Positions 16,122 to 64,000 of a stretch of 64,000 nt of DNA are shown in pieces. The DNA lies in IMG/VR virus record IMGVR_UViG_3300006925_000007, positions 48,242 to 112,241 of that record; one strand, written 5' to 3'. The translations under genes and the position numbers were made by a program. Within the stretch, counting starts at the first letter, position 1, and the number at the start of each line of letters is the position of its first letter. The DNA is from a virus. The notes below the pieces were generated by a model. That model made no database searches. It worked only from the letters and a program-made list of their open reading frames with translations, and had not been told where the DNA came from.

Positions 16122-17282
16122 TTACTTAAATGATAGGTTACCTGCATTAACGTCAATTTTCGCTAAGTAGTCAGCCGCGTTACCAAGAGATGAAGCTTGG
16201 TTGTTAAGCTCTACATAACCATAACGTGTCATGAATGACACTGTTGGCTCGAAAGTTGCCGGGTCTAATACTGTGCCTGAAGACATAAGTGGGATGTATG
16301 GGCAATAGAACGCTGCTGCGTCGATTTCGCCTTCACCTTTATATCCAACAAGAACTGGTGTAGAATCTGATGCATATTGATCAACAAATACACGAACAGT
16401 GTTATTCAAAGTTCCAACAAATTTAGTGTTAGTTGGTGCTTCAAATGGACCTTCAGTTGTTCTTGCGAACGCTGAAGTTGTCGCACTTTGTAGAACAGTT
16501 AACATAGTTGGTGAAACAACTACGTAGTTACCTGCGCCACGACGTGTTCTTGCTGCGATCAAGTTAGCTGCTCTGTTAATAAGAACTGCTAGTGCGGCAT
16601 GCTGGTCACCAACGAAAGTTGCTTGACCTGATACTGCTGCTTGATCATATGAGTCAGTAGCTGTGCCTGCCAGTGTGCGTAATGAAGTTAGAACTTCTTG
16701 GTCAATTTCAGCAGTAATTTCTTGTGCAAGTGCTTGCATAATTTCTGCTTCTACGTCTAGACCGTGCATTGAATTGGCATCTTGTGCCGCTTCAAAAGTC
16801 CAACGTGCTGACAATTTACGTGTTTTAGCTTCAACTGTTTGTTTCAACACTTGAATTGACATTTTACGTCCTGCTTCAGCTTCTAATGAGCTTGTTGAAG
16901 ATGGACCACCTGTAGCCGCATCACCTGAGTAACCTTTTGCAATTGCAAATGGGCTAAGTGCTTCATCACCAGCGGCAACACCTGCTGCTGCTTGTGAATA
17001 ACGGATACGTAAAGTGTGGATCTGGCCTACTGGACCAGTCATTGGTTGAACACCAACTAATTCGTTCGCAATAACCGTCGGCATTACACGTCTGATTACT
17101 GGTAGAATTACTTTGTTTAATGTTGCGATGTTGCCTGACATAGTTGATCCGGCAGCTGCTGATTCTGAAAGATAGCTCTTGGTATTCTCAAGAACTGACT
17201 CCATAACAACCTTTTTATTGCCGTCTAAACCGTCAGTTAGGGCGCCTTTAGTTACGTCCCAATTTTCAAATAAGTTTGACAT
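16122..17282 (-). CDS. gp23: Major capsid protein gp23
   Basis: 386 aa, HK97-fold major capsid protein of T4-like phages. After an N-terminal propeptide, the sequence PVIRRVMPTVIANELVGVQP, then MTGPVGQIHTLRIRY, matches the T4 gp23 core (MVRRAIPNLIAFDICGVQPM, then NSPTGQVFALRAVY). YLSE at residues 37-40 fits the hydrophobic-x-Glu cleavage rule of the gp21 protease and would leave a mature protein of about 346 residues. Further conserved stretches are LNNTVRVFVDQYA and FMTRYGYVELN near the C-terminus. It is shorter than T4 gp23 (521 aa), mainly through absence of the inserted domain. It follows gp22 by 10 bases, with AAGGAG before the ATG, and is last in the head operon before a strong terminator, as expected for the most abundant protein. 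Confidence 0.95.
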   Translation of the reverse strand: MSNLFENWDVTKGALTDGLDGNKKVVMESVLENTKSYLSESAAAGSTMSGNIATLNKVILPVIRRVMPTVIANELVGVQPMTGPVGQIHTLRIRYSQAAAGVAAGDEALSPFAIAKGYSGDAATGGPSSTSSLEAEAGRKMSIQVLKQTVEAKTRKLSARWTFEAAQDANSMHGLDVEAEIMQALAQEITAEIDQEVLTSLRTLAGTATDSYDQAAVSGQATFVGDQHAALAVLINRAANLIAARTRRGAGNYVVVSPTMLTVLQSATTSAFARTTEGPFEAPTNTKFVGTLNNTVRVFVDQYASDSTPVLVGYKGEGEIDAAAFYCPYIPLMSSGTVLDPATFEPTVSFMTRYGYVELNNQASSLGNAADYLAKIDVNAGNLSFK

Positions 17283-46000: not shown

Positions 46001-49000
46001 GGTGGTCAAATTTTCATTCATACTGATTTAAGTATTGTGCATGATGCCTTGTATGCCAACGATTCAATTAACATTACAAACGCATTAGCAACTACCGGAG
46101 AAGATTGGGATAACTTTAAAAATAGATTTAGAAGTCAAGTAGTTAGGTTATACGAAGCTAACACTTATAAAAGTATTAACGACTTAGTTGATGATACAAT
46201 TAAAGCAATTACAGTTACTAGACAGGGCGGAGAATTATTTAAAACATCTAACATGGTTTATACAAATAGTTCTCGATTAGAAAAATTTGTTTGGACAGAT
46301 ATCAATAACAATCCTAGAATATTTTTAAAAGATAATATTCACAGCGATGACAACATACAAGATCATGTTTATGTTTACTTGACAGACTGGAATGGAATCA
46401 AACTAGAAACTCGATTATTAATTAAGGATGTTGACTATAGGCAAGCAGGAAATTTAATTGAATTTACATTTCAGCCAATTGCAACACCAACTGAAGTTAA
46501 ACCAACAATTATAGTGCATCATCACGCAATGGATAATGCCTCATATGTTCCACCAAGTTTAACAAAACTTAAACTTACCTCTGGTATGATTCCAACATGG
46601 GACACTTCAACGAATACATTAATCGGACACGATGGAACACAGTGGAACTTAAGATCCACTGCAAAGTTAATTGATATGAACTCTGAATCATTTGATGTTA
46701 TAAATGCATGTCAGTTTGAATTAGAAAAAAGAATTTATTCAGGATTAGTTATTAGTGATCGTATTAATACAGATGACGCATGTGTTGAAAGTTTACAGTA
46801 TGGATTTACTTCTAAGTTTATACCAAACGCAACAAGAGAAACATGGTATACATTAGAAACAATTAATGATGCAATGTATAAATCATTCACGCAGTGGAAA
46901 GAAAAAAATAAACGTAGCGATATAAAAATTAATTATGATTCACTTGATGTAGATACTTGGAACTTTAGTTCGGTTGCACCGGGTGGTCGATTTGGAACTA
47001 ATAAACTTCCTGGTCAGTGGAAAGGTGCATACGAAGTTTTATTTGGAACAAGCACCCCACACTCAACACCGTGGCAAATGTTAGGATATGCATTTAAACC
47101 ATCATGGTGGTTTGCAAAATATAGCTGGACTGATGTAACAAAACGTGCTGCACTTATAAGTGCATTAAAACGTGGACAAGTATCAACTGACAGACAAGAC
47201 ATAGAATGGGCAAACCATATGTGGGATTGGGATAATCATTGCCCAGTTAATACATATGGCGCATTAGTGTCAATCGAAACAGTATTAGATCCTAACAACA
47301 ATATTACAAATGAAGGAAAGCAAAAACGTTTTACGTTTGGAGATTATGCAGGATTAGAAGCTGAATGGAGAAATAGTGCAAGCGGTAAAGCTGCATTAAT
47401 TGATGCAATTGTAAAATTAAATCCAACAAAAGCATCCAGTATATTCTATTCGCCTAGTTTACGAGTTACTAAAAAGCAACTAGATTATTTAAACAAAGAC
47501 AATTTAAATACTTACACAACATCTTCTATTGCAACACCAGGTAAAGTATATGGCAGAGTAGTTTCTGATGTTGAAATTAAAACAATTGATAGATTTTATA
47601 CAAATACATTTGTAAGATTAGTTGGAGCTGATAGTGTTGATGCTGAAGTTACATTAGCATTTGACAACAGACAATCAAGTTACCCAGAAATATTTGGCAC
47701 CGCAGGAGATGACGGTAAGCGTTATGTAGTTGGAGCAAGTTTATCACAGCGTGGTAGAAATCTAACAACACTGCCAGCAGTATATACTAATTTTAATCCA
47801 GCACAGATAGGAACTTCTACATTTACATTTAAAACAAAAGAAGTAGAACACGTAGCAAGCGGCATAGTTCAAGCACTATACAATTATACATTACGCAATA
47901 ATATTGATTATAATCTAGATAACTTACATACTAGAATTGACACACATTTATCAACTCAGTTACGTGGATTTAGTAGCAAACACTTGCTAGATTTTAAAAC
48001 ACAAACATATAACGATGCAAATCATACATTGAGTGAAAATGACTTTGCACTAGAAATGTATAAAAGCACACCAATTAACATTGCAATTGCAAGTTCGATA
48101 ACTGTTGAATGGTTAGAACCAGGTTGGAAAATTAGTGGCAACGGATATGGTAAACAAGAATTTAATTTCTTTGCACCAGACAATACAAACTCATCTTCGT
48201 TTAAAAATGTAGATATAGTAGGCACACAAGTTAGAAAATATAAAAAGTTTGCACCAACACATAGTATATTAGAATACAATGCAACACTTGACAAAATACA
48301 AGATGTATATTCATTTATACGAGGATACTATGCTTATTTAGAATCAATTGGATTTGAATTCCCATACAGCGGAGATAGTATAGCGGCTAGTTTTGCCAAA
48401 TGGGCATTGACTAATCCTAAAGAAAGCAAAACATTTGATTTAGGAAATAATTTTAAGTTTGCACCAACACACGGTAACGTTATGGAATTAAACACAGGTG
48501 TGTTTAAAGAAAATACAATAACTGATGCAACAAGCAATACAATTAATTCAGATAACTTACTAGTAGCTAGAGTAGATAATACATTAACATTAGAAACAAA
48601 AGATAATACAATGATTGGTTCGGCTGGATTTGTTGTAGTTGAATACGAACATATTGCATTATTAAATAACAAAACAAACTTTGGTGTTGTTGTGTATGAT
48701 AACGTAAAGAACATTATACAAGAGAAAATAAGATTTAGAGGACTAATAACAGATAAGTGGGACGGTAATAAACGAGCTCCAGGCTACTTAGTATTTGATG
48801 ATAAGATTGTTGAAAACTTTGATAGTAGCGTTCAGGCTGTAGATGATTATTATAAAACAGATGGAATAGATTTCAATCCTTCAGTTAGAAAATTAGAAGA
48901 TATTACAATTGGTAATTCAAATAACGAGCTTACAATCAGTGGCAATGAATTTGATTCAATAACTAAACGTAATTATTACCAAGGGTTAATTAAGCAACGA

Positions 49001-52000
49001 GGAACTTCCACAGGACTAGATAAAATTGAACGCAAGTTTATTGATGATAAGCTGGACATTAAAGTTCACGAACAGTATATGTTGTCTAGAAGTTACTTTG
49101 GTAATACCGATAAATTAAAAGCAGTAGAATTTACATTAGAAAATAATAGTTTTGAAACATCTCCACAAGCTATTAAGTTCTCTTCAGGAACAGTATATGA
49201 TGATGTTTTAGTTTATGCACCAGGTGATAAAAGGTTTGTTAATCCATTTGAAGTTGCAGCTAACTTTACTACTCAGCCTATTAAAGAAGTTGACATAAGT
49301 AATTTAACTGCTGGTTCATTATTAGACGCAGAAGCAAAATATAAAATAAACCTACTAAATGAAATTACAAATGTTTATGAACCAACATCAGATTATGCAA
49401 TAATTGAAACTTGGGCAGATAACAAAAGCTATAAATTAAATAACTTAGTAAGATACAGAGGTGCATTATATCAGTGTAACGTTGATAGCACGACTGTAAC
49501 TACGTCAACAGATGTCATTGAGCTAGTTGGTAGTAAATCACTTGCTCAATTTGATTACGACACATCAGTTATTATTGACGGAAGTGAAACAATATTAAGA
49601 ACTACATCAACAACTACCGATACAATTTCTGTCCTTGGCACCGAAACTAGCCCAGTTGTATTAGCACCAACACCAAGCACAACATTGACAATAGACGGTG
49701 TTTCAGTATCGTTAACTAATGTGCAAGAAGTTGATGTTGTTACTGGACCAGCATTATTAACTGGCAATGCAATTAACCCAGCATTTGATAGTAGTAATGG
49801 ATATGTCACTGGTAAAACAATTACAATAAATGGTTACGTAGTTGACTTTGATACAACTCCAGCAGATGTAATAGAAAACTTCACAGGTGTAGCGGCACAG
49901 CAAACATACACAATTAGTCAAGCACTAACTAGTTCAACATACAGTGTTGGCAGTGTTACAGTTGATGGAACAGCAAACACAGACTTTACAGTAAGTGGAC
50001 AAGACATTACATTTAATACTCCAACATTTGCAGGTGGCGAAGCTATTGTAGTAACACTAACTCATGTTGTGCTTGGAATGACTACAGCAGAAATTGTAAC
50101 TAAGATAAACGATACATTGACAGCAAGTGGTGTTAGCACAACAGCAGGTGTGGATGAGGCAATACTAGCAGACCTTACCGGCGATAATAGATTACGTATC
50201 AGATATTGGGCAACGGTTCAAACAAGTTTCTTAACTCTTTCAGCATCAACAACAAACTCAGTTTTAGGATTTCAAGATACAGGCGAGCAAGACTTGCCTA
50301 CAGCAGAAAAACAACAAATAGAACAAGATATGGATTTAGATGCAGTTGTAATCGCAATTAACAATACACCTGGACTTACATATATTTCTGCATCAAATGA
50401 GTCTAACCAGTTGAGATTAGTAAGTGCCGGCAGCAGAACAGAATTAACAATTGGTGGAAGTCAACGAACAGTATTAGGATTTAGTATTGACCCATATCAA
50501 GCTGGAACTAGCACAGTTCAAGCAAAAACCCCATTAAATCAAGCTGTAAACGATATACAGGCCAAATTGATTGCTGATGGTATTACAGGAGTCACAGTAT
50601 CAGATACAGGTAATTTTTTAAATATTACATCAACTAATTCAACACTTACATTACCAGCAAGTTCTACAGATCCTTTCTTAGTCCAAGCAGGCTTAACAAC
50701 ATCAACTGGAGTAATAAATCAACTATCAGATGATACACTAGAAAATACATTTGTATCAAATGAATGGACAAACATAAGCCACACAGATCCAGCATTGTTT
50801 AATATTTGGGTTGCTAACGATTCAGATTACGAAGTTAAAGGAATAAACGGTATTACAACAAAGCATTTTGGTTGGAATGTGTTACAAGTTCAAAACAAAG
50901 GATTATATACAGCAGATTTACAAAACAACGCAGAGGATGAATTTACAAAAAATGAGCCGTGTGGAATATGTGCAGGCGCAATGACTGCCGATGGAAACGA
51001 TGCACAAATAACAGTTCACATTAATCACGGATTAAAACTAGGCGATTATGTAATGGTGTTAAACACAACAACTATTCCTAATATTGATGGTATACACAAA
51101 GTTACAAAAATTAAAGACTCCACAACATTTTATATTGATGAATACATTGATAAGTGTGGATCATCTAGCTCTATAATGACATTGCGTCCAACAAGATTTG
51201 CATCAATAGAAGATAGAAATGCTGCATTACAAAGTGATAGTTGGAATGTTCCTCCTACAACTAATATATTTTCAGACTATGACAAAAAAGATAATGAAGG
51301 AAGAACAAGATCAATAAATGTATTTGAAACCACTTACTCAACAGATGGTGCAGGTTATATTGCAGGCACGTTATCACAGTCAACAGCATCTGAAGTAGAA
51401 GCTTCTCAAATACCGGCTAGAAGTCAATCAACTAGAATTACAAATACAGACCTAGACAATATTACAGTCTATGATTACGAAACTAATACACCTATGCTTG
51501 ATCTAGAATTATTTGATCCAATGCGTGGAATTATTCCAGGTGTTGCTGATGCAGAAATTGATATTAAGAGTGTGCATGATGTTGCAATATATAATACATC
51601 AACTGAAGAAGAATATGAAGCCGACGATGATAGTGCATGGGCAGATGCCGAAGTAGGTAAACGTTGGTGGGATACTAGTAAAGTAAGATACTACGATTAT
51701 GATCAGGGAGATATAAAAGATAAAACATCTAATTGGGCTAAACAATTTGTAGGTAGCGAAATTGCAATCTGGGAATGGACCAAGAGTTCAGTTGCACCAG
51801 ACGATTATACAAAGGCGGTTGCAAGTAATAAAGTGATGTTTGGTGTGCCAGCAAGTGGCACAGCTTATGCTGAATTTGACGTAGTAAAGAATCAAAATGA
51901 ATATTACTATACATTACGTAGTGAATGGAATGCAACCAATAGCAAATACGAAAGTGTTTATTATTTCTGGGTGCGTAACAAAGAAACAATTGGCTCTGCA

Positions 52001-54013
52001 GATAAAAACATTGTTATAAGCGAAGTAGAAAATATTATTACTGATCCAAGTGCAAACGGAATATATTGGTTCTCTGTAGTAGACAGCGATGCTATTATTA
52101 TATCAGACATTTGGGATTTTGTAAATAAAAAAGTTGTGCTACAATTAAATAAGAAAGTTGATAACAGTCATGCTCAATGGATACTTGTGGGCAGAGACAC
52201 AGATATTATACCCACGCATTGGTATACAGGATTAAAGAGTAACCTAGCATCTATAGACGAAGATGACTTACGTATTCCAGATTTCAACAAGCATGAGTAT
52301 GCAAGATACGGCGATGACAGAGCTAACAGACAAGCATGGTTTGATGATATTGCATCAGCTAGAAAAAATGCACTTGATATTATTAATAGATTACTTGTAT
52401 CAGTAAACGTATACAATGACTTTAAAACTAAATTCTTTCAATCAATTATCGACAATGGTATTCCTAATGATACATGGGAATGGACAGATTATATAGAACC
52501 AGAACATAATTTTTCTAACACATATACAAAAAATGTTACGAATATAGAAGAATTAGAATCACTTAATACAGACGAATACCAAACAGCTAGAATTGAAATA
52601 TTTAATGATGACAATGTTGATAGAACTGAATTCTATAGATACACAACAACTGGTTGGGTTTTAAGTAAAAAACGCAACGCAACTATTAACTGGATTGAAG
52701 AACGTCTTGCTAAATCTTATACCTGGGATATGGAACCATGGGATAGTGTAAACTGGAGCAGTGAAGCTATTGCTGATTGGTGGAAGGGTATTGTTCAAAT
52801 ACTAAGAGATGTATTATTTGTAAACGAACATACACATAAATTTAATAAGTTCTTCTTTGGAATGATTGACTATGCAATGTCAAGAACTAAACAAGTTGAA
52901 TGGGCAATGAAAACATCTTATATCAGACTAGAAGTCAAAAGTGATTTCAAAGAAGTCAAAAAATATAAGAAGGATATGCTGTCAACTATTGAAGGATATG
53001 TAAATGATGCTAAACCTTTCCATGTTAAAATAAGCGAGACAAGTAGAACATTCAATAAACAAGAAGAGGTTCCGCTTGCAATTACAGAAGAACACAACTC
53101 AGCAATTACAATTAAAGCAGATACAAGAGGCACTAACTTTAATGGACTTGTGCTTGATGCAAACAATGAATTAGAAAAAACTGTTACATTAGTTAACAAT
53201 GGAACAAACACTTATGTAATATCTAAAACTGATGCAGATATGACAGAATGGAACGCAACGTTAGTTAAGGACGGAGTAAGTGAATTAGTATTAGACACTG
53301 ATTATTTCTTAGTAGATCAAACGATAAGTTTTGCTTCAACACCATTGGGAACTGTTACAGTTACACTTGAATTTACTAATCCAATACAGTTAATAGGTGG
53401 CGATAGTCAAACAAACTTTATAGATATAAGTGGGGTAGGCGGATTTGCAATAGTAGATGGCGGAGACAGTTTACAGCCAGAGTATTATACATTAGCAAAT
53501 AATGGCAACAAAAATATATCAACTGACGCAGATATTAGACCACAAGAAACAGCAATAATTAAAGTGCAAACAAACAGATCAGGGTCAACTGATACAACTG
53601 AAACAAGAACATTTGCATATATGCTTGATATAAACAAGTATCAGCATGTATATGGAATGGAAGATGCAAAAACATCTACACTGTCAGCAGATCTTAATAT
53701 GAGTGACACAGTGTTAGCAGTTGCTGACCCAAGTAAATTTGCAACAGCAGAATTAGTATTAGTTAACAATGAAATAATACAAGTTCAAAACGTTGGCGGT
53801 GTAATTTATATTAAAAAACGTGGATTAAATCTAACATTTGCAAACAAACATACAACTGGCACAACCATTACTGATGTTACTGATAATGCATTACATTATG
53901 TAACTTCTTCAGCAGATAAAAGGTTTAATGACGATAACACAACAATTTTAGATAGTTCAACCTCAGCAGAAGCTATTATGTTGAACGGAATAGGAAAAGG
54001 AACTATACTATAA
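43001..54013 (+). CDS. Giant baseplate wedge protein in the gp7 position, 3670 aa
   Basis: One uninterrupted 11-kb frame. The start ANLLPQVFNTDVNKKWLDST, then LDQMISKGRLKNVEGYIGDK, is a hallmark N-terminus of giant wedge-like proteins in marine T4-like phages. The body is a chain of beta-rich modules with many Trp-rich loops (WVDQMPTYESI, WQWANYSPDLGDSHW, WEWTDYIEPEHNF). Around residues 2170-2560 lies a Thr/Val-rich stretch of Ig-like or beta-sandwich repeats. The section near 3320-3380 is helical (VEWAMKTSYIRLEVKSDFKE), and the C-terminus is again beta-rich. It follows gp6, the place of T4 gp7 (1032 aa), which nucleates the wedge. Whether it also replaces gp8-gp10 is unknown. No catalytic motif was noticed. 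Confidence 0.7.
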   Translation: MSKKKSGSYKTPNIKSANLLPQVFNTDVNKKWLDSTLDQMISKGRLKNVEGYIGDKSGNNRSQGDVYLENGKLDPAIVITNTDNKLVDAITMDDIANAININFSEYNYNTAYATKSYSYRPPINIHKFVDYQNYAWVDQMPTYESIRTLDAATVGTVTSGSSYPANPSHGDYFALNDGVSTKTYQWDDNVKVWQPSGTTDAIYTRNNNNAGFTSVVNPVEMLTDQLSYTIIDNNNTFDLADQMLIKFVGDGWHSDSRTKTYLVTGTGKELKLINIYSWPMRQTLYPETTKTTVTVGGIWDKSKITDVDPNKSSSLYSPATTPSEMKGSYNVDANRLPIFDGFVFTNEESNKTQFIEGELISFSDSWSIIDPNGISQPILPDADYHKIWYTTVDNVTGDIDFILIVDAKQIGTNPGKWEQFIVPGTDETVWAKYKDRLEGFDTQNYDKSTVIFTEKDYQVIETDSPFRTAWSRNNKWTDIDTLKKVNELIYGGINIEALTDTKFIAKRPIIEFDGKLNMWQWANYSPDLGDSHWTGVIDFMVKPIGDYAPTESAGPVYSLDLSKVEIKGNQRIAFTEGDLSNKIWEVGSNGVLTEGISLTENNCAYVREALPDTEDKIWSNSDVFFDGTKWSTGQQRTTINQMPLFKLYTTGGLAVEQLEGGKFQGSRLFNYKIGTGTTDPELSIPLSYKDINGIGEYQFENYLFTETQFQSITSQFNKDTNYHRQIIGQNLFKVNDKLTNLYKQSEEISGAETLETYDVDSVSSDFTINTGHSSWRADRRIALHQQNKECVVTEIQNGVYLDKTNVDHTNIYVGKNIPVVFNNLLETGDVRFKTVAGVDIETTPQAGVTVTRSGNDITLSLTTYSSKIIIDPADATLTNDYTIIPLDNYDSIQHTVEVNGKQLSPNNYTINADTIVIPKEKLNVDDVVDLKYASNNNKNRTTNLSLPKTLKHNPNNEILKTFTMGETLTHWQDIITSTPGFEGDVFGVNNYDAINKQHYFGGQIFIHTDLSIVHDALYANDSINITNALATTGEDWDNFKNRFRSQVVRLYEANTYKSINDLVDDTIKAITVTRQGGELFKTSNMVYTNSSRLEKFVWTDINNNPRIFLKDNIHSDDNIQDHVYVYLTDWNGIKLETRLLIKDVDYRQAGNLIEFTFQPIATPTEVKPTIIVHHHAMDNASYVPPSLTKLKLTSGMIPTWDTSTNTLIGHDGTQWNLRSTAKLIDMNSESFDVINACQFELEKRIYSGLVISDRINTDDACVESLQYGFTSKFIPNATRETWYTLETINDAMYKSFTQWKEKNKRSDIKINYDSLDVDTWNFSSVAPGGRFGTNKLPGQWKGAYEVLFGTSTPHSTPWQMLGYAFKPSWWFAKYSWTDVTKRAALISALKRGQVSTDRQDIEWANHMWDWDNHCPVNTYGALVSIETVLDPNNNITNEGKQKRFTFGDYAGLEAEWRNSASGKAALIDAIVKLNPTKASSIFYSPSLRVTKKQLDYLNKDNLNTYTTSSIATPGKVYGRVVSDVEIKTIDRFYTNTFVRLVGADSVDAEVTLAFDNRQSSYPEIFGTAGDDGKRYVVGASLSQRGRNLTTLPAVYTNFNPAQIGTSTFTFKTKEVEHVASGIVQALYNYTLRNNIDYNLDNLHTRIDTHLSTQLRGFSSKHLLDFKTQTYNDANHTLSENDFALEMYKSTPINIAIASSITVEWLEPGWKISGNGYGKQEFNFFAPDNTNSSSFKNVDIVGTQVRKYKKFAPTHSILEYNATLDKIQDVYSFIRGYYAYLESIGFEFPYSGDSIAASFAKWALTNPKESKTFDLGNNFKFAPTHGNVMELNTGVFKENTITDATSNTINSDNLLVARVDNTLTLETKDNTMIGSAGFVVVEYEHIALLNNKTNFGVVVYDNVKNIIQEKIRFRGLITDKWDGNKRAPGYLVFDDKIVENFDSSVQAVDDYYKTDGIDFNPSVRKLEDITIGNSNNELTISGNEFDSITKRNYYQGLIKQRGTSTGLDKIERKFIDDKLDIKVHEQYMLSRSYFGNTDKLKAVEFTLENNSFETSPQAIKFSSGTVYDDVLVYAPGDKRFVNPFEVAANFTTQPIKEVDISNLTAGSLLDAEAKYKINLLNEITNVYEPTSDYAIIETWADNKSYKLNNLVRYRGALYQCNVDSTTVTTSTDVIELVGSKSLAQFDYDTSVIIDGSETILRTTSTTTDTISVLGTETSPVVLAPTPSTTLTIDGVSVSLTNVQEVDVVTGPALLTGNAINPAFDSSNGYVTGKTITINGYVVDFDTTPADVIENFTGVAAQQTYTISQALTSSTYSVGSVTVDGTANTDFTVSGQDITFNTPTFAGGEAIVVTLTHVVLGMTTAEIVTKINDTLTASGVSTTAGVDEAILADLTGDNRLRIRYWATVQTSFLTLSASTTNSVLGFQDTGEQDLPTAEKQQIEQDMDLDAVVIAINNTPGLTYISASNESNQLRLVSAGSRTELTIGGSQRTVLGFSIDPYQAGTSTVQAKTPLNQAVNDIQAKLIADGITGVTVSDTGNFLNITSTNSTLTLPASSTDPFLVQAGLTTSTGVINQLSDDTLENTFVSNEWTNISHTDPALFNIWVANDSDYEVKGINGITTKHFGWNVLQVQNKGLYTADLQNNAEDEFTKNEPCGICAGAMTADGNDAQITVHINHGLKLGDYVMVLNTTTIPNIDGIHKVTKIKDSTTFYIDEYIDKCGSSSSIMTLRPTRFASIEDRNAALQSDSWNVPPTTNIFSDYDKKDNEGRTRSINVFETTYSTDGAGYIAGTLSQSTASEVEASQIPARSQSTRITNTDLDNITVYDYETNTPMLDLELFDPMRGIIPGVADAEIDIKSVHDVAIYNTSTEEEYEADDDSAWADAEVGKRWWDTSKVRYYDYDQGDIKDKTSNWAKQFVGSEIAIWEWTKSSVAPDDYTKAVASNKVMFGVPASGTAYAEFDVVKNQNEYYYTLRSEWNATNSKYESVYYFWVRNKETIGSADKNIVISEVENIITDPSANGIYWFSVVDSDAIIISDIWDFVNKKVVLQLNKKVDNSHAQWILVGRDTDIIPTHWYTGLKSNLASIDEDDLRIPDFNKHEYARYGDDRANRQAWFDDIASARKNALDIINRLLVSVNVYNDFKTKFFQSIIDNGIPNDTWEWTDYIEPEHNFSNTYTKNVTNIEELESLNTDEYQTARIEIFNDDNVDRTEFYRYTTTGWVLSKKRNATINWIEERLAKSYTWDMEPWDSVNWSSEAIADWWKGIVQILRDVLFVNEHTHKFNKFFFGMIDYAMSRTKQVEWAMKTSYIRLEVKSDFKEVKKYKKDMLSTIEGYVNDAKPFHVKISETSRTFNKQEEVPLAITEEHNSAITIKADTRGTNFNGLVLDANNELEKTVTLVNNGTNTYVISKTDADMTEWNATLVKDGVSELVLDTDYFLVDQTISFASTPLGTVTVTLEFTNPIQLIGGDSQTNFIDISGVGGFAIVDGGDSLQPEYYTLANNGNKNISTDADIRPQETAIIKVQTNRSGSTDTTETRTFAYMLDINKYQHVYGMEDAKTSTLSADLNMSDTVLAVADPSKFATAELVLVNNEIIQVQNVGGVIYIKKRGLNLTFANKHTTGTTITDVTDNALHYVTSSADKRFNDDNTTILDSSTSAEAIMLNGIGKGTIL

Positions 54014-55544: not shown

Positions 55545-56648
55545 ATGCCTGTTAGTGGATTACAAGCTGGTGAGAATATTACTGCCACACAGTTTAACGA
55601 GTTAGTTAGCTTATACAATGCTTTCTGGCAAGGCGGCTCATATTCATACGACACAAATCATTCTAGTGAATTTCCTAGAAGAAAAGGCTGGGGACAACCA
55701 GCGGTTATACCAACTGTAGCACAATCTACAACAATTACAGCAGAACATACAAATTATTTACTTGCACAGATTAACGCAGGACTATGGCACATTGAAGAAG
55801 ATGTTGCTTCTCTACAAGTTAAACGTTCATCTTCAACTTCAATATCAGCAACTTTATATACTCAATTAGAGAATGTATACGACAACGTTATAGAACCAAA
55901 GAAGTTTAATATAGACCCTTCTTCAAAAAATGTTAATACTGCTATTGTTACTACATCAAACAGTAGCACACCTTGGCCAGACGATTTGTATAGTGAACAT
56001 AAATTTGTATTCACAGATTACAACAAAGCTAGACACTTTTTTAATAGTGGCGGAGAATTAATTATTGATATGTCTTCTACTGTTGGTGGCACAAACCCAC
56101 CATCATTGGCATGGAATTCATTCTTTGAAAACTTAGGTATTGTCCGAGTAGGTGCAGAAACTACAACCAATGACGGTGACGGCGAAGGCGATGGACCTTA
56201 TAGTAGTCTTGGTGGTGCAAAAGGCTTTTATAGTTTAACTGGCGTTGATAATGGAACAACTCCTACAACTAATGATTGGGTAATAGTATACAATGTTGCT
56301 GCAGATGATTATGTTGAAAGTGCATATTCTAATGGTGGTTATAATTCACCAGGTGGTATATATTCACAACGAAGATTTCAAATTGAGCTAAGAGGAACTC
56401 TTAACACTAATCCAAATCAATTTGAAATACATGTAAAAATAAAACTTACCGAAGACGATGAAGATGGATCATCTATCAATACAAATATTGTAGGTGAGTT
56501 TGGATTCTCACAACCATTAAACACACCAGAGCCAAGTGAATCATCAGCACACGATTATTTCTCACCAGCAACTGGTGTAGACTATATATTTACAGAGCGT
56601 ACCGCTCCACTCATATCTCAAGTAACTCCATGGACGGCTGTTAGCTAA
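55545..56648 (+). CDS. Virion structural protein, 367 aa
   Basis: GLQAGENITATQFNELVSLY at the N-terminus resembles the helical start of phage baseplate or fibre adaptors. The body is beta-rich (HKFVFTDYNKARHFFNSGGE, then LIIDMSSTVGGTNPPSLAWN; SQRRFQIELRGTLNTNPNQF), with an acidic Gly loop DGDGEGDGPYSS that could bind calcium. It is the last gene of the baseplate/fibre operon. A small hairpin (CGACG/CGTCG, 56662-56675) follows its stop. Specific role unknown. Confidence 0.6.
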   Translation: MPVSGLQAGENITATQFNELVSLYNAFWQGGSYSYDTNHSSEFPRRKGWGQPAVIPTVAQSTTITAEHTNYLLAQINAGLWHIEEDVASLQVKRSSSTSISATLYTQLENVYDNVIEPKKFNIDPSSKNVNTAIVTTSNSSTPWPDDLYSEHKFVFTDYNKARHFFNSGGELIIDMSSTVGGTNPPSLAWNSFFENLGIVRVGAETTTNDGDGEGDGPYSSLGGAKGFYSLTGVDNGTTPTTNDWVIVYNVAADDYVESAYSNGGYNSPGGIYSQRRFQIELRGTLNTNPNQFEIHVKIKLTEDDEDGSSINTNIVGEFGFSQPLNTPEPSESSAHDYFSPATGVDYIFTERTAPLISQVTPWTAVS

Positions 56649-56740: not shown

Positions 56741-57091
56741 ATGGACGAACGTCTTGAGAAAGCGTTAGAGTTTAGTAATTACACTCTAACACTTAATAAT
56801 CAAAAACGAAATATTAAAAATAGAGTAGCACAATTACAATTAGTGCATCACCAAGCAGGTGTGTTTGTTGCAAATCAAGAAACAATTGCATTTGTAAAGA
56901 CATTAATTGATCTTGACAAAAGTAAAAATACAGTCTTAATTGATTCAAAAGATAATCCAGTTCAAGTTGCTGACCTAACTGAACTGCTTGATAAATTAGT
57001 AGATCAATATATTAGTGCTACACAAGAGTATGATGTTGAATACCAAAAACTACGAAAGTCTAGAAGTATCAAAACAATAATGGATTGGTAA
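56741..57091 (+). CDS. Small helical protein heading the cassette, 116 aa
   Basis: MDERLEKALEFSNYTLTLNN, then QKRNIKNRVAQLQLVHHQAG, a middle FVANQETIAFVKTLIDLDKS and a helical C-terminus VDQYISATQEYDVEYQKLRK. Mostly coiled-coil or helical bundle, without Cys or membrane segments. Proteins like this occur in T4-like marine phages, but I do not know a function. The ribosome site AGGAG is good, and the stop overlaps the next ATG by one base, so it is coupled to the glycosyltransferase. Confidence 0.6.
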   Translation: MDERLEKALEFSNYTLTLNNQKRNIKNRVAQLQLVHHQAGVFVANQETIAFVKTLIDLDKSKNTVLIDSKDNPVQVADLTELLDKLVDQYISATQEYDVEYQKLRKSRSIKTIMDW

Positions 57092-57999
57092 TGAGCGAAT
57101 ACAAAGTGCAACCATACAAAGAAGACGAAGGTGTGTGCTTCTTTGTTTATAATAATGAGCATTTAGATTATGTTGATCTGGCAATACTAGCTTCTCGATA
57201 TGTTAAAGAATATCTTAACTTACCAGTTTGTATAATTACTGATGCTGGAACATATGCATGGATGAAACAGTCACAAGAAGATGAAGTTATCAATGAGTCT
57301 TTTGATTATATAAAAATAACAGAAGATGAGTTCAGACCTAATGAGCGTAGACACTATGATAGTCCATGGACAGAATTTAAAGCACAGTTCAGCAATAGCA
57401 ACAAGCACAAGGTATGGGAATACAGTCCATTTTCAAAAACATTATTACTTGACACTGACTACATTGTAAAAAATAAATTCTTACTACGCAGTATGGCATA
57501 TGAAGGTGTTGCAATGTTTAACAATGCCATAAGTGCTAGAAATGAGAAACCACACATAAACGAAGTGTTACTATACCCAGGCGGTATTAAGATGTGGTGG
57601 AGCACAGTTGTATATTTTGATCGTAGCGACTTTAGTAAAATGTTTTTTGAGCTATGGGCTCATATTGCAGAGAACTATGAGTTCTATCAATTCTTATATA
57701 ATTTCCCACATAAACTATTTAGAACAGATTATTGTGTAAGTATTGCGGTTCATATACTAAATGGAATGGAAGATGGTGATGCTGTTCATAACTTTGATGA
57801 CCATCCAATGTATTTTCTATCTCAAAAAGATGATATAGTCGATGTTAATAATCTACAAGATTGGATCTGTCTTGGTAACGACACAAAAGAAGAATGGAAG
57901 AACATATTAATTAATCATAAAAATTTAGACTTGCATGTTATGAACAAACGTGCATTATCAAGAATAAAGCCAAAACTTATGGAGTTCTTTAATGAATAG
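57091..57999 (+). CDS. GT-A fold glycosyltransferase-like protein 1
   Basis: 302 aa from the ATG at 57091; an in-frame TTG two codons upstream is less likely. FFVYNNEHLDYVDLAILASR and YVKEYLNLPVCIITDA form the nucleotide-binding start. YSPFSKTLLLDTDYIVKNKF holds the DTD (DxD) metal/sugar-nucleotide motif expected of GT-A enzymes such as GT8. EVLLYPGGIKMWWSTVVYFD lies in the acceptor side, and HNFDDHPMYFLS contains a late histidine-aspartate that could bind metal. It likely transfers a sugar from a nucleotide donor; the acceptor is unknown (virion protein, host surface or modified base). It overlaps the next gene by eight bases. Confidence 0.7.
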   Translation: MSEYKVQPYKEDEGVCFFVYNNEHLDYVDLAILASRYVKEYLNLPVCIITDAGTYAWMKQSQEDEVINESFDYIKITEDEFRPNERRHYDSPWTEFKAQFSNSNKHKVWEYSPFSKTLLLDTDYIVKNKFLLRSMAYEGVAMFNNAISARNEKPHINEVLLYPGGIKMWWSTVVYFDRSDFSKMFFELWAHIAENYEFYQFLYNFPHKLFRTDYCVSIAVHILNGMEDGDAVHNFDDHPMYFLSQKDDIVDVNNLQDWICLGNDTKEEWKNILINHKNLDLHVMNKRALSRIKPKLMEFFNE

Positions 58000-58843
58000 T
58001 GAAATTATATCAGAGAACGGTTATGTAATTATAGCAGTTAATCCAATTGAGTTTAGACAAGCACAATGTTGTGCATTTTCAATTAAAAGTAAGATGCCAG
58101 ATGCTAGTGTAACACTAGTAGTTCCAGACAGCAATAAAGTAGAAAGTTCTTTTCTAACAGGATTTGATGCAGTTGCAGAATTACCATTTAAAAAACATAC
58201 AACATGTAGACAGAATGATTGGCAGCTATATTGGAGTAGTCCATATGAAAATACAATAGCGATAGATTGCAAGTCATTGGTCAAAGATGATCAAACTAGC
58301 ATGTGGGATTATTTAATAGATCATTATGATATTGTATTTCCAAACCAAGTCAATGATATTAGAAAAAATAAAATTAATCTAAAATATCAAGACGATTTAG
58401 AAAGTGAATACAATTTAAACATAGTTTACGCTAACATGTTCTTCTTTAAAAAGAATAACGTATCACTACGTCATTTTAAATTAGCAGATGTTTATTTTCA
58501 ATATTGGAAAGACACTTGTGTTAAATTTTTACAGCCTCAACACATACCAGACTTCTTTGATGTTGATGTTATGCACACGCTTGTTGCTACACACACAGGT
58601 GACAATGTAGTTGCACATCATAATGTATTACAATACATTGATATGAAAAATAGTGTAGAGTCGGGTGCATTAGGTAAAATAACCAAGTGGACTGATAAGT
58701 TAAACATTTGGTCAAGTGCTAATGGAAAAATTAAAATTCAAAACTATGCAATCAATGGAACACTAAGTTACCATGAGAATGAATTCCTAACAGACGAAAT
58801 ATTTAATGAGCAAAGAGACTACTACAGCAACATCACAAAGTAA
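57992..58843 (+). CDS. Glycosyltransferase-like protein 2 with degenerate DxD
   Basis: 283 aa. GYVIIAVNPIEFRQAQCCAF, then SIKSKMPDASVTLVVPDS has the Rossmann-like order of GT-A proteins. At the metal-motif position there is ENTIAIDCKSLVKDD, so the second acidic residue is replaced (DCK). DVDVMHTLVATHTGDNVVAH, then HNVLQYIDMK parallels the C-terminal part of the preceding gene. The two may be diverged paralogues, this one possibly inactive and serving as a partner, or using a different metal site. The 38-base overlap with the next gene is unusually long. Confidence 0.55.
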   Translation: MNSEIISENGYVIIAVNPIEFRQAQCCAFSIKSKMPDASVTLVVPDSNKVESSFLTGFDAVAELPFKKHTTCRQNDWQLYWSSPYENTIAIDCKSLVKDDQTSMWDYLIDHYDIVFPNQVNDIRKNKINLKYQDDLESEYNLNIVYANMFFFKKNNVSLRHFKLADVYFQYWKDTCVKFLQPQHIPDFFDVDVMHTLVATHTGDNVVAHHNVLQYIDMKNSVESGALGKITKWTDKLNIWSSANGKIKIQNYAINGTLSYHENEFLTDEIFNEQRDYYSNITK

Positions 58844-59780
58844 AACGTGGTATATTCGATTTAATAAAAACTCAGGCAGAATACTGAGTATTGGTCCACG
58901 ACCATTTGTTACTACAACCGAAGACGAAGAAGTAACAGCATCCACAAATAATGTATGCAAGCATTTAATATCAGGCAAGAAAAAGATTAATAAGTATGCA
59001 GTTCATTGGGATCTATTTAATGAGGTTTGGGACATTGATGTAAAAAGTTCAGTGCTAGAATTAAAGACCAAGGGCGAGAAACTAAATCAAGCACTAGAAA
59101 GAGATCCAAGTATATGTGATGTATATATTAAAGTTATACGTGCAACTAATACTATCAAGATGGAAATTAATCTAACTACAATTAAACAGTCGTTAAACCT
59201 AGGACAAATCAATAGTATCAAACAAGATAACACAAGCATACTAGATCTTTATCTTTGTAGGAAGAATGATCCGGATTATATGATTGGTGTTATTCCAGTT
59301 GATGCAATTAAATTAATTAATGAAAGACATCTTTATATACAAGTTCCACCTAATATAACACGTCATATTAATAGTTGGGATGAAATAAGTTTTTTCACTA
59401 AGCCTGTGTTTGAATGCTATGGTATTGAATTTAGCGATGTTACAATATCAGCTGCTGATGATAACAACCAGCGGCCGCATCAATATGCAAACATAGGTGA
59501 AAACGCACACATAAATATGTATACATTAAATGATAAGTTAATTATTAAGAGCGAAGTCAATCCAGATACAATGTATTACTTTGATAACAAACCTAAGTTA
59601 GCATTACATGTATCAGATAAAGAAATTGACAACTATGTCAACACTTTAACATTTAACACTGACAAGTTGCTTAATAATAAGATAGAAATAGATTTGCCAG
59701 ATAATTGGCCAGCTAATCCTATAATTACATTTAAGAATAAAAAGTTAACAGTAAATTACTATGGAGAAAAGAATGAGTAA
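58806..59780 (+). CDS. Unrecognised 324-aa protein of the cassette
   Basis: SKTWYIRFNKNSGRILSIGP at the start, then a middle of alternating strands (ICDVYIKVIRATNTIKMEIN; LYLCRKNDPDYMIGVIPVDA, then IKLINERHLYIQVPPNITRH), and a C-terminal beta domain (MYYFDNKPKLALHVSDKEID; ITFKNKKLTVNYYGEK). No enzyme motif, signal peptide or cysteine cluster. It looks like a multi-domain beta-sandwich protein, possibly virion-associated and a candidate acceptor of the neighbouring glycosyltransferases, which is speculation. It overlaps the preceding gene by 38 bases and the next by eight. Confidence 0.55.
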   Translation: MSKETTTATSQSKTWYIRFNKNSGRILSIGPRPFVTTTEDEEVTASTNNVCKHLISGKKKINKYAVHWDLFNEVWDIDVKSSVLELKTKGEKLNQALERDPSICDVYIKVIRATNTIKMEINLTTIKQSLNLGQINSIKQDNTSILDLYLCRKNDPDYMIGVIPVDAIKLINERHLYIQVPPNITRHINSWDEISFFTKPVFECYGIEFSDVTISAADDNNQRPHQYANIGENAHINMYTLNDKLIIKSEVNPDTMYYFDNKPKLALHVSDKEIDNYVNTLTFNTDKLLNNKIEIDLPDNWPANPIITFKNKKLTVNYYGEKNE

Positions 59781-60759
59781 CATGCAAAGCATTAATGAAT
59801 TTGATATTGTATATATCAGTTATGACGAACCTAATGCAGACGAGAACTACGCAGACTTGCTGGACAAATGTCCGTGGGCTAAACGCAGTCATGGTGTCGA
59901 GGGAAGTGATGCCGCACACAAGGCCGCTGCTAACATGGCAGATACAGATAGGTTTATTACAATTGATGCTGACAACATTGTGCATGATGCTTTCTTTAGT
60001 GTTGAAATAAACATGGATAAAATTAATGACACTGACGTTATTAGTTGGGCAGGCAAGAACATTACCAACGGACTTGTATACGGCAACGGTGGTATCAAGT
60101 GTTGGCCTAAAGAAGTTGTTATGAATATGAAAACACATGAGAATGCACCCAAAGGTGACAAGAGAGCACAAGTAGATTTTTGTTGGAACATTAACTATGT
60201 GCAGATGAATAATATCTATTGCACAGTAATGAACAATGGTAGTCCACTACAAGCCTGGCGTGCAGGTTTCCGTGAAGGTGTTAAGATGGGATTAGTAGAT
60301 GGAGATGTTATTGACCCAAGCGACTTAAAACAACGTGTGCATAGCAAAAACTACAAACGTTTGTTAACATGGATGAGCGTAGGTGACGATAGTGAAAATG
60401 GTATATGGGCAGTGTATGGCGCACGTCTAGGATGTCACATGACAAACATTACCAGAACTGAATGGGATTGGAAAAACGTTAGAGATTTTAAATGGCTTAC
60501 TAATTATTTTAATCAGGAAGTATTGCCACAGTTTCAAGATAATCCAGATCAATTATGTAAACGCACAGGCACACCATGGAATTACAAAGCAGTGGAAGAC
60601 AAGGCAATTGAACTTGGTATTGACCTACGCAAACGATTACATTTAGAAATTGCAGACTTAGGTAAAGAGGGCAGTGCTTTCTTTAAAGAAGTTTACATTA
60701 ATCCAAGTCGTATGGGAGCACAAATCAGAGAAGACCAAGTCGAAGATACATTAGAATAA
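59773..60759 (+). CDS. GT-A fold glycosyltransferase-like protein 3
   Basis: 328 aa from the ATG at 59773, with GGAGAAAAGA just before it; an ATG at 59761 would include that ribosome site, so I reject it. FDIVYISYDEPNADENYADL begins the nucleotide-binding fold, as in family-2-like enzymes. DTDRFITIDADNIVHDAFFS carries DAD (DxD). WAGKNITNGLVYGNGGIKCW, then PKEVV is the likely acceptor/base region, and VDFCWNINYVQMNNIYCTVM follows. The C-terminal third (DWKNVRDFKWLTNYFNQEVL) is helical. Similar genes occur in marine T4-like phages. Donor and acceptor are unknown. Confidence 0.7.
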   Translation: MSNMQSINEFDIVYISYDEPNADENYADLLDKCPWAKRSHGVEGSDAAHKAAANMADTDRFITIDADNIVHDAFFSVEINMDKINDTDVISWAGKNITNGLVYGNGGIKCWPKEVVMNMKTHENAPKGDKRAQVDFCWNINYVQMNNIYCTVMNNGSPLQAWRAGFREGVKMGLVDGDVIDPSDLKQRVHSKNYKRLLTWMSVGDDSENGIWAVYGARLGCHMTNITRTEWDWKNVRDFKWLTNYFNQEVLPQFQDNPDQLCKRTGTPWNYKAVEDKAIELGIDLRKRLHLEIADLGKEGSAFFKEVYINPSRMGAQIREDQVEDTLE

Positions 60760-60762
60760 GAT

Positions 60763-62115
60763 ATGGCAGATACCAAAACTAATTGGGAAGAACATTACGG
60801 AGATACATTCTGTGTTTACCCATGGCTTAGCTTAATGGTAAACACAAGTGGAAGCATTGACTTTTGTTGTATTGCAAAGCCAAGTGTTCTACGAGACCAG
60901 GATGGAAAGATATTAGACATAAGCACCACTACTCTCAAAGAAGCGTGGAACAGTGATGATATGAAAGACCTTCGACTTGGTATGATACAAGGTGAACAGA
61001 TTAGTAGTTGTAAGCATTGTTACTTACAAGAAGAAGTAGGTAAAAAAAGTTTTAGACAAATGCACAACGAAGAATGGGAAAGTAGAATTGGTGCAGATGC
61101 AATACACGAAAGGGTTAAGGCAAGCTATGACAACGACATGGCACTACCTGATCACGATCCTGTATACTTAGATTTAAGACTAGGTAACCTATGTAACCTT
61201 AGTTGTAGAATGTGTAACAGTTATAACAGTAGCACAATTGCAAAAGAAAATAAGCAACTAGAAGAAATAGAACCTGAGTATAAAAAGATACAAGAAAAAA
61301 CATATGGCAAAACTCCAGACTGGGTATACAGCAAAGAGTATAGAGATAAATTTGATGCAGATGTTTTTTGGAAAGATATCTACGCATGGCTTCCAGACTT
61401 GAGAAAAGTTTACATGACAGGTGGTGAGCCCACTATGATCAAAAACAACATGGACTTCTTAGACTTTGCTGCAGACAATGGACATGCAGAACATATAACT
61501 GTATTCATGAATACAAATTGCACAAATGCTAATTCAAAATTCCTAAACAGCATAAGCAAATATGAAAGTGTAGATATTAATGCCAGCCTTGATGGTGTAG
61601 GCAATGTAAACGAATTCATACGTGGAACTAAGAGTTGGGATATCATTCTTAGAAACTATCGTGCTATGTTAGACAAGCCAAATGTTAACAGTAACATTAC
61701 TCCAGTGCTACAAATATATAATCTAAATCGTATACACGAAGTATTATACTTGGCAGCAGAACTAACAGATGAATATTATCCAAACCATGATTGGAAAACA
61801 ATTGGTGTAGATATATTAATAAACACACATCCAAATTATTTAGACATACGTAATCTTACAGTTGAACAACGAGCACCTGCATTAAAAAGATTACAAGAGT
61901 TTTCAGTTACATGCAAATATCTATACGAGAAGAATTGGTTAGTTAAGAATAGTGTAGACGGTATCATTAGTTACTTACAGCAACCTCAATTAGAAAACTG
62001 GCACAAAAACTTAACAGAGTTTGTTACATTAACTCAAGTATGGGATCGTAAACGTAATACAAACTTTAGTATTATAGACGACGAACTATATCAATCTATA
62101 AAAGAGATGTTATAA
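60763..62115 (+). CDS. Radical SAM protein 1 with extra cysteine domain
   Basis: 450 aa. An N-terminal region has FCVYPWLSLMVNTSGSIDFC, then CIAKPS and SCKHCYLQEE, an additional cysteine cluster of the SPASM/twitch kind placed before the core. The core LDLRLGNLCNLSCRMCNSYN contains CNLSCRMC (CxxxCxxC), the ligand set of the SAM-binding 4Fe-4S cluster. VYMTGGEPTMIKNNMDFLDF holds the GGEP motif that binds SAM, and VDINASLDGVGNVNEFIRGT the later barrel strand. The protein makes a 5'-deoxyadenosyl radical in related enzymes. Substrate unknown; peptide or sugar modification fits the domain type and the neighbours. It is coupled to the next, similar gene. Confidence 0.85.
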   Translation: MADTKTNWEEHYGDTFCVYPWLSLMVNTSGSIDFCCIAKPSVLRDQDGKILDISTTTLKEAWNSDDMKDLRLGMIQGEQISSCKHCYLQEEVGKKSFRQMHNEEWESRIGADAIHERVKASYDNDMALPDHDPVYLDLRLGNLCNLSCRMCNSYNSSTIAKENKQLEEIEPEYKKIQEKTYGKTPDWVYSKEYRDKFDADVFWKDIYAWLPDLRKVYMTGGEPTMIKNNMDFLDFAADNGHAEHITVFMNTNCTNANSKFLNSISKYESVDINASLDGVGNVNEFIRGTKSWDIILRNYRAMLDKPNVNSNITPVLQIYNLNRIHEVLYLAAELTDEYYPNHDWKTIGVDILINTHPNYLDIRNLTVEQRAPALKRLQEFSVTCKYLYEKNWLVKNSVDGIISYLQQPQLENWHKNLTEFVTLTQVWDRKRNTNFSIIDDELYQSIKEML

Positions 62116-63410
62116 TGGCGCAAGACTTTTTAGAAGATTACGGAAAGGATTTCTGTATACTGCCATGGATACATATGGCAACACACACTGACGGCACTGC
62201 ATTACTATGTTGTGTTGCACAGAAGCCGCCAGACGAAAGAGTAAACTTAAATCACACAACAGTAGATGGCATATGGAATAGTTACTATTGGAAGAAAGCC
62301 AGACTGGCTATGCTCGCCGAGCAAAAACTAAAAGCATGTTCTCATTGTTACAAAGAAGAAGTAGCTGGTATTAGAAGTCATAGAATGAATGAAAACAATC
62401 TGTGGACAAAGAAGCTAGGCAGAGAATACATCGATGAATTAATTGCAAGCACAAACACAGACGGTAGTTTAGATCAAGATGTTGTCACATTAGACTTGCG
62501 TTTGGGAAACACATGTAATGTGCAATGCGTTATGTGTAGGCCTACTGATTCAAGTAAGTGGGTTAAGGCTGCTGAAATAATAGCCGCAGACAGTGAAGGT
62601 GAAGTCAAAAATGATTGGGATTGGAAGATACAAGATTTCAAACGTAATAAATTTAAGTGGGCAGAAGATGATGAGTTTTGGATTGAAGAAATTGAACCAC
62701 TGTTACCTACTATGCGTCATTTTATTTTTGCAGGCGGAGAACCACTATACCTAAAGAACCACAAACGTTTTTTAAAGATGTGTGTTGAGAGTGGGCATGC
62801 AGAACACATAGAGCTGCGTTATCATACCAATGGCACTATAATGCCAGACGATATAATTGAACTATGGAGTAAGTTTAAGTTTGTAGAACTAATGATTAGT
62901 ATTGATGGCATAGGCGAAATGAATAAATGGTTACGCTATCCAACTGAATGGAAAACAGTAGAACAAACGTTAGACAAGGTAGAGAACTCGCCACACGATA
63001 ATATTGTAGGCAAAGTATTATGCACCGTTAGTGCATTAAACATTTGGTATCTCCCAGACTTTGCTGAGTTCTTAATATCAAAACAATACAAAAAGATTGG
63101 AGCACAAGACCATTATGGTGTGTTCCATCCTGGTATACTACATTGGCCAACTTACTTATGCACAAAAGTTTTACCAGCTGGTCTTAAACAAGAGATAACA
63201 GACAAGATGCAAAAGTTGTTAGACGCACATCCTGACAATCCAAAAATACAAGAACTAAAAAACATTGTAACTTTTATGAACGAAGAAGACCACAGTCATA
63301 GTTGGAACGCACTAAACAAATACATACATTCGTTAGATAAGATGCGTGGCACAGACTTTAAAGAAGACTTTGCTTCTTTGTATGAGATATGGGAAAAGTA
63401 TGAAGTTTGA
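62115..63410 (+). CDS. Radical SAM protein 2 with extra cysteine domain
   Basis: 431 aa, a paralogue of the preceding gene with the same order. FCILPWIHMATHTDGTALLC, then CVAQKP and CSHCYKEEV come first, then LDLRLGNTCNVQCVMCRPTD (CNVQCVMC cluster), FIFAGGEPLYLKNHKRFLKM (GGEP) and VELMISIDGIGEMNKWLRYP. The ATG overlaps the previous stop by one base, so both are made together and may act in sequence or as a pair. All cluster cysteines seen in copy 1 are present here. The C-terminal 80 residues are helical. Substrate unknown. Confidence 0.85.
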   Translation: MAQDFLEDYGKDFCILPWIHMATHTDGTALLCCVAQKPPDERVNLNHTTVDGIWNSYYWKKARLAMLAEQKLKACSHCYKEEVAGIRSHRMNENNLWTKKLGREYIDELIASTNTDGSLDQDVVTLDLRLGNTCNVQCVMCRPTDSSKWVKAAEIIAADSEGEVKNDWDWKIQDFKRNKFKWAEDDEFWIEEIEPLLPTMRHFIFAGGEPLYLKNHKRFLKMCVESGHAEHIELRYHTNGTIMPDDIIELWSKFKFVELMISIDGIGEMNKWLRYPTEWKTVEQTLDKVENSPHDNIVGKVLCTVSALNIWYLPDFAEFLISKQYKKIGAQDHYGVFHPGILHWPTYLCTKVLPAGLKQEITDKMQKLLDAHPDNPKIQELKNIVTFMNEEDHSHSWNALNKYIHSLDKMRGTDFKEDFASLYEIWEKYEV

Positions 63411-64000
63411 TTTAATACTTGGTGATAACAACAGTAAGCATACAGTGTTAAAGTGTGATATATTTCAGCACGAGTATCTAGATATTTTTCAAAATGATCC
63501 TACCATGTGCGAATGGAATTTATACAATGATAAATCAGCACAGCTACAAAAGTTGTCCGATGCGTTAAAAAAATTAATAGATATATGGAACACACATGGT
63601 ATACATCAACTCGATACAAGTGAGTTCCATTTGTTTAGCGATGACTCGGCAGTAGCTGCAATGAAACTGCATCAAGATATTCTTAATCCATTACAGTCAA
63701 GTATTATAACTGCATACAGAGATCTAAACGATAACAGTCAAGTAGAACACACTGAAGAACTAGTAGTTATGTTTAGAAAACTAAATCTAATAAGAGATAT
63801 AGTTTCACACTTGTCTGTAGATTTAGATTCGCAACAGTTTCAACTTGCGTTTGAAAGTGATTATAAGTTATTTGAAGATGACGACTTTGCAAGATTTAGT
63901 TTTGCTCGCAACCCAGGTGAAATATTTTTAGCACCAACTGACATTTCATATAACTATGATAATTTAATTATTGAAGAAAAGTCAGCATACGAAATAGATA
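63400..64000 (+). CDS. Unrecognised cassette protein (3' end outside window)
   Basis: The frame opens at the ATG at 63400, inside the last codons of radical SAM protein 2 (11-base overlap), and is still open at base 64000. It begins MKFDLILGDNNSKHTVLKCD, then IFQHEYLDIFQND, with later FHLFSDDSAVAAMKLHQDIL and YDNLIIEEKSAYEI. At least 200 residues, acidic and mostly helical. I do not recognise it. Tight overlap with the radical SAM pair makes it a candidate partner or substrate of these enzymes. Confidence 0.6.
   Translation, partial: MKFDLILGDNNSKHTVLKCDIFQHEYLDIFQNDPTMCEWNLYNDKSAQLQKLSDALKKLIDIWNTHGIHQLDTSEFHLFSDDSAVAAMKLHQDILNPLQSSIITAYRDLNDNSQVEHTEELVVMFRKLNLIRDIVSHLSVDLDSQQFQLAFESDYKLFEDDDFARFSFARNPGEIFLAPTDISYNYDNLIIEEKSAYEID

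Follow-up and report, generated by a model that had tools for sequence, protein, structure and literature searches.

The locus examined here raises the question why a phage genome should contain two adjacent radical SAM paralogues that both carry additional cysteines ahead of the catalytic core, and what the encoded enzymes may do together. The window that was analyzed (64,000 nucleotides, positions 48,242 to 112,241 of IMG/VR record IMGVR_UViG_3300006925_000007) makes up the 3' end of a virus record that is 112,241 bases long. The pair and those of its neighbours from 57085 onwards that are given below lie on the plus strand: gene A (60763-62115) encodes 450 amino acids and gene B (62115-63410) 431, with AlphaFold models of high pLDDT (93.9 and 95.0, respectively). 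As stated in the preliminary description, the two genes overlap by one base (TAATG at 62113-62117). Both proteins contain the invariant radical SAM motif CxxxCxxC (A: CNLSCRMC, residues 144-151, 61192-61215; B: CNVQCVMC, residues 134-141, 62514-62537), followed by GGEP (A: residues 220-223, 61420-61431; B: residues 207-210, 62733-62744), and PF04055 is matched with 43.8 (A) and 43.9 (B) bits at a cut-off of 29.5. Judged by these motifs and scores, A and B are members of the radical SAM superfamily; they are 34% identical to each other over 305 residues. Ahead of the core, A has the cysteines C17, C35, C36, C83 and C86, and B has C14, C32, C33, C75 and C78. The core motifs and the extra cysteines had thus been read correctly in both ORFs, and the reported cysteine set, a CC plus a CxxC, is indeed present, but the first cysteine (A C17, B C14), which sits in a CxxPW motif and is as invariant as the others, had been missed.

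The comparison of the N-terminal region with SPASM/twitch models that had been proposed was carried out and yielded a match to PF13186 (SPASM) in both proteins (34.6 bits in A, 26.4 bits in B; cut-off 21.5), with the Pfam radical SAM match lying behind it. The domain extends over residues 17-87 of A (60811-61023), with C17, C35 (or C36), C83 and C86 as likely ligands, and over residues 14-79 of B (62154-62351), with C14, C32 (or C33), C75 and C78 as likely ligands. A twitch domain is defined by the motif CX9-15GX4C and then CX2C, and by the order cysteine, hairpin, cysteine, helix and two cysteines (PMC6231123). Both the motif and the canonical order of elements were found in A and B: the sequences read CX12GX4C and then CX2C, and the secondary structure predicted in the AlphaFold models runs from a cysteine via a beta-hairpin (in B, E20-23/E28-30 between C14 and C32), a second cysteine and helices to the CxxC. 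A full SPASM domain, which has a seven-cysteine motif and two clusters, was not found in either protein; there are five N-terminal cysteines, and CX2CX5CX3C is absent.

One counterpart in these comparisons is the butirosin dehydrogenase BtrN, a twitch radical SAM enzyme. Positions 7-76 of a profile built from 13 phage relatives align to the C-terminal twitch domain of BtrN (residues 166-237 of 4m7s, E 7e-4), with all four BtrN twitch cysteines in register with the N-terminus of the profile. When the N-terminal domain was searched alone the BtrN match was weak (E 0.49), with the four cysteines still in register, and BtrN was not listed when the profile was built from the wider alignment A2. The twitch assignment draws its support from the 13-member profile, the Pfam SPASM match and the cysteine register. 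Together these identify the N-terminal domain of A and B, at the level of sequence, as a twitch (half-SPASM) domain ahead of the core, in line with the auxiliary-cluster-type domain that had been suspected. The twitch domains of BtrN and of A and B are homologous; in BtrN, however, the domain is C-terminal, and the overall fold similarity to B is low (TMq 0.24).

The preliminary description had made its reading depend on the conservation of the N-terminal cysteines in homologues, and they are conserved. Every one of them is kept in 31/31 paralogues from the gene arrays, save C36 (30/31), in a set that was picked by the radical SAM motif and its position and not by the N-terminal cysteines. The whole pattern is kept in 387 of the 402 full-length relatives that were picked by profile score alone (at least 200 bits). 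A further set of 356 rows was not used, as its rows had been picked by cysteine pattern and its conservation is partly by construction. Among the 15 relatives without the whole pattern, several have lost the second cysteine position. This second twitch cysteine is missing from N_Twi paralogues at L199:4716-5999, L173:4707-6005, L178:4722-6005 and L065:4261-5508, and likewise at L191:1604-2824, L167:8102-9241 and L170:9794-10933; such paralogues may be natural open-site or cluster-less variants. A and B themselves are under purifying selection, with dN/dS values against the closest relative of about 0.04 for A (0.006/0.156) and 0.05 for B (0.014/0.275).

The order of the domains had been taken as a possible rearrangement or permutation. 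The order is real, with the twitch domain before the core, but it is not a novelty: NF033640 (N_Twi_rSAM; model length 398) describes precisely this architecture and is matched over its full length by A (350.7 bits, residues 14-443, model positions 2-395) and by B (378.1 bits, model positions 2-397), at about twice the curated cut-off of 170 bits, and many predicted phage structures in BFVD have the same fold (TM-score up to 0.80). A novel domain order was rejected on the basis of this named family and these phage structures. A and B do not differ from the family in architecture; what is particular to them is the close A-B partnership, which is confined to two sublineages. The family scores, the N-terminal SPASM match and the cysteine conservation together imply that the feature is not due to chance. 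A whole-chain fold search of the PDB returned low TM-scores with large rmsd (best query TM-score about 0.37) and no solved structure that covers the whole N-twitch radical SAM fold; for the predicted models, this low similarity is consistent with rearranged domains, not proof of them. In PHROGs, A and B match radical SAM families of a generic kind and nothing more specific, and among 50,697 records of isolated phages there were only three weak matches (22-26% identity). We found no reported function in the literature for any N-terminal-twitch radical SAM protein. The island to which the pair belongs also encodes a radical SAM protein with the twitch domain at its C-terminus (L041:13342-14130), where Pfam SPASM matches at residues 191-258 and positions 12-70 of NF033640, the N-terminal twitch, align at residues 198-259. 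The presence of a C-terminal twitch in the same island implies that the twitch module has moved, by permutation or by shuffling.

We then asked how far A and B belong together, using trees of relatives from viral contigs and bacterial genomes, with a second, smaller tree as a check. In the smaller tree the A sequences group together (SH-aLRT 87), as do those of B (SH-aLRT 96; the extra row in the B lineage is the B gene of L189, a pair that had been left out earlier as redundant), and both lineages hold phage as well as Bdellovibrionota members. Of 40 loci that have an A-lineage gene, 36 have B as well; because these loci were reached mainly via A, it is the finding of B that counts as independent. 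Two of the four A loci without B are cut by contig ends (L063, L143). No gene lies between A and B in 33 of the 36 loci, where the two usually overlap (with starts set to the longest ORF), and the order is reversed to B-A in three (L056, L059, L061). In a mirror-tree comparison of 34 loci, A and B correlate with r = 0.90. When both comparisons were confined to one set of 16 loci, the correlation was 0.93 for A with B and 0.84 for A with the upstream neighbour, so part of the A-B signal is to be attributed to shared phage descent. Each lineage has invariant residues of its own, for example H20, W149 and H237 in B and E162, N250 and Q317 in A, on account of which A and B are unlikely to be interchangeable. 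The trees and the adjacency describe A and B as two old, diverged lineages that stay together, and in the literature, as far as openly accessible papers go, we found no specific description of the A-B pair or of phage proteins with an N-terminal SPASM/twitch domain; the conserved pairing thus appears to be undescribed. Where the pair occurs on Bdellovibrionota contigs, nuo, lon-like or atp genes are found on them too, which indicates that these pairs are chromosomal; the neighbours there are often housekeeping genes, glycan genes being few or missing. Such genomes have many N_Twi genes, with well over ten above the cut-off in G009 and G010.

In the window, the pair is preceded by two GT8-like glycosyltransferase genes of one family (57085-57999 and 57992-58843; the family profile matches glycogenin, E 1.8e-9), by an uncharacterized gene (58806-59780), and by a gene (family 2, 59761-60759) that is a conserved upstream neighbour of A in many phage loci. 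The latter looks glycosyltransferase-like by eye (an ITIDADN stretch) and has no convincing Pfam or PDB match; the identification of families 2 and 7 as glycosyltransferases through PDB profile searches was rejected for lack of a convincing match, and for both the label is by eye only. The next gene downstream (63400-64000, family 10) is cut by the contig end, and in relatives another radical SAM gene comes after it. Within 6 kb of the pair, 27/27 phage loci have a glycosyltransferase or glycosyltransferase-like family, in several different local contexts; GT8, GT7 and GT4 types were confirmed by profile, and families 2 and 7 were counted by eye. The pair stands at the head of a sugar/glycan island in close relatives, where GT8-like glycosyltransferases, KDO genes and a carbamoyltransferase are present. 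In one of them (G001) the genes after the pair encode a radical SAM protein, a sulfotransferase and an aminotransferase, a fusion of Gfo/Idh with radical SAM, an NDP-sugar SDR and a cupin, as well as KdsA and a KdsB-like protein. The radical SAM part of this type of fusion (L041:14130-16469, L036:7084-9420) resembles DesII, the dTDP-4-amino-4,6-dideoxy-D-glucose ammonia-lyase (TIGR04426), with 372.7 bits, which is strong but below the curated 450; this DesII-like protein shares the island of the relatives and is neither A nor B. The window ends inside an island that is larger in relatives, and the reading as two paralogues needs to be corrected accordingly: the contig end accounts in part for the "pair", whereas the functional coupling that had been suggested from the paired copies is supported by the separate lineages, the adjacency and the lineage-specific residues.

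Some relatives carry much longer arrays. In G003, 87 kb contain 18 radical SAM genes (nine N_Twi genes over the cut-off and ten checked by Pfam, with one in common), and the array includes an MTA/SAH-type nucleosidase gene (L035:11605-12150; best match PRK05634, below its cut-off). Since 5'-deoxyadenosine inhibits radical SAM enzymes (PMC8102628), this nucleosidase could serve to clear it. A phage-like module also occurs beside pheS/pheT-like genes in a Bdellovibrionota MAG (L212:11389-19145, G012:C21), with family 5 (including the phage motif RHFFNSGG), family 4, two GT8-like genes, family 2 and three radical SAM genes, and may be a phage-derived or shared cassette. The same kind of module was seen in six phage-looking contigs (L052, L066, L119, L122, L123, L127) that are filed under MAGs of Gammaproteobacteria, Verrucomicrobia, Rickettsiales, Pelagibacter and other bacteria and are probably misbinned.

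As to the phage itself, which is marine, the major capsid protein (16122-17282) is 67-70% identical to those of the jumbo myoviruses Phosso, PA5oct and MIJ3, so that the record probably represents one piece of the genome of a jumbo phage which, by its capsid, is not a typical pelagimyophage. Beside the capsid genes, a minus-strand ORF (15125-15934) starts with a signal-peptide-like sequence (MKTTVSVLAILFATSVAAQAE) and possibly encodes an exported phage protein, and a 3,670-aa ORF (43001-54013) lies in the virion region and directly follows the baseplate wedge gene. Radical SAM genes are numerous in some marine T4-like phages: in passages from the respective papers, TARA_ERS488813_N000010 is described with 12 of them in one genome (PMC5332604), and the host-recognition clusters of pelagimyophages with radical SAM cassettes in a hypervariable island that includes tail and glycosyltransferase genes (PMC7029224). 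These passages do not treat the A-B pair. The likeness lies in the many radical SAM genes, or in their occurrence as cassettes in a hypervariable island, and the difference in the present capsid, which is nearest to jumbo myoviruses, and in the still larger number of such genes in the relative G003.

What the enzymes act upon has to be weighed from this context. That A and B would be mere tandem duplicates in a gene array, functionally uncoupled, is very improbable: long arrays of N_Twi genes are frequent, but the two lineages are separate, each with phage and Bdellovibrionota members, and their adjacency is kept in both orders despite changes in the other neighbours. The main rival is that they modify a peptide or protein, whether the precursor of a RiPP or a protein of the virion, for instance family 5 (55545-56648), in the manner of the SPASM/twitch peptide maturases CteB, SkfB and SuiB. 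We consider this unlikely as a whole; it keeps its rank among the rivals because these maturases, which share the combination of radical SAM core and auxiliary-cluster domain, are among the closest solved folds. SkfB tops the profile search, in phages the pair is preceded by virion genes, and family 5 is found again in a Bdellovibrionota contig whose module is similar. The maturases, however, have a C-terminal SPASM/twitch domain and a precursor peptide, whereas none of the 157 small ORFs at the 36 pair loci is common to more than three loci, gene packing is too tight to leave more than a little space for a precursor, family 5 is missing near several A-B pairs, and function cannot be predicted from likeness among such enzymes (PMC6231123). 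A RiPP cluster was rejected, as no conserved small ORF, and hence no conserved precursor, was found near the 36 pairs. No Pfam match to an RRE domain was found in A or B, the N-terminus of which is the twitch domain; not every maturase has a fused RRE.

Somewhat less probable again is a small molecule or cofactor unrelated to glycans, with the sugar genes as accidental neighbours in a hypervariable island. The Bdellovibrionota pairs, which can adjoin nuo and other housekeeping genes, speak for such a product; against it stand the glycosyltransferase or glycosyltransferase-like genes near every phage pair in varied contexts, and the DesII-like radical SAM protein in the same island. Domain identity, conserved cysteines, purifying selection, conserved pairing and the glycan context in phages are what was observed; to the reading that A and B work as a coupled pair of N-twitch radical SAM enzymes, by which a sugar or glycan specified by the phage is oxidized or rearranged, we give an even chance. 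Since glycan genes are often scarce or lacking near the Bdellovibrionota pairs, the glycan link comes mainly from the phages.

For this coupled action on a sugar or glycan, the core of each enzyme would hold a [4Fe-4S] cluster on CxxxCxxC and cleave SAM, while the twitch cysteines (A C17/C35/C83/C86, B C14/C32/C75/C78) would bind one auxiliary Fe-S cluster, the N-terminal domain taking the place that the C-terminal twitch has in enzymes such as BtrN. The 5'-deoxyadenosyl radical would abstract a hydrogen from a sugar or glycan that genes of the surrounding island make or attach, and the auxiliary cluster may take up an electron, as has been proposed for the twitch cluster of BtrN (PMC6231123). 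The outcome, by comparison with that proposal, might be a dehydrogenation, an epimerization or a rearrangement; A and B may act one after the other or as a complex, and the product may decorate the virion or the host surface. A more far-reaching version, which we regard as doubtful, is that A and B form an obligate two-enzyme unit, heteromeric or strictly sequential, common to jumbo phages and predatory Bdellovibrionota, that performs a two-step radical glycan modification for virion or cell-surface identity.

The feature is real and had been correctly read: A and B belong to a known family, and their conserved pairing is of interest. As such the A-B pair provides a defined, conserved two-gene unit for testing, the context of which points to virus-encoded radical sugar chemistry.
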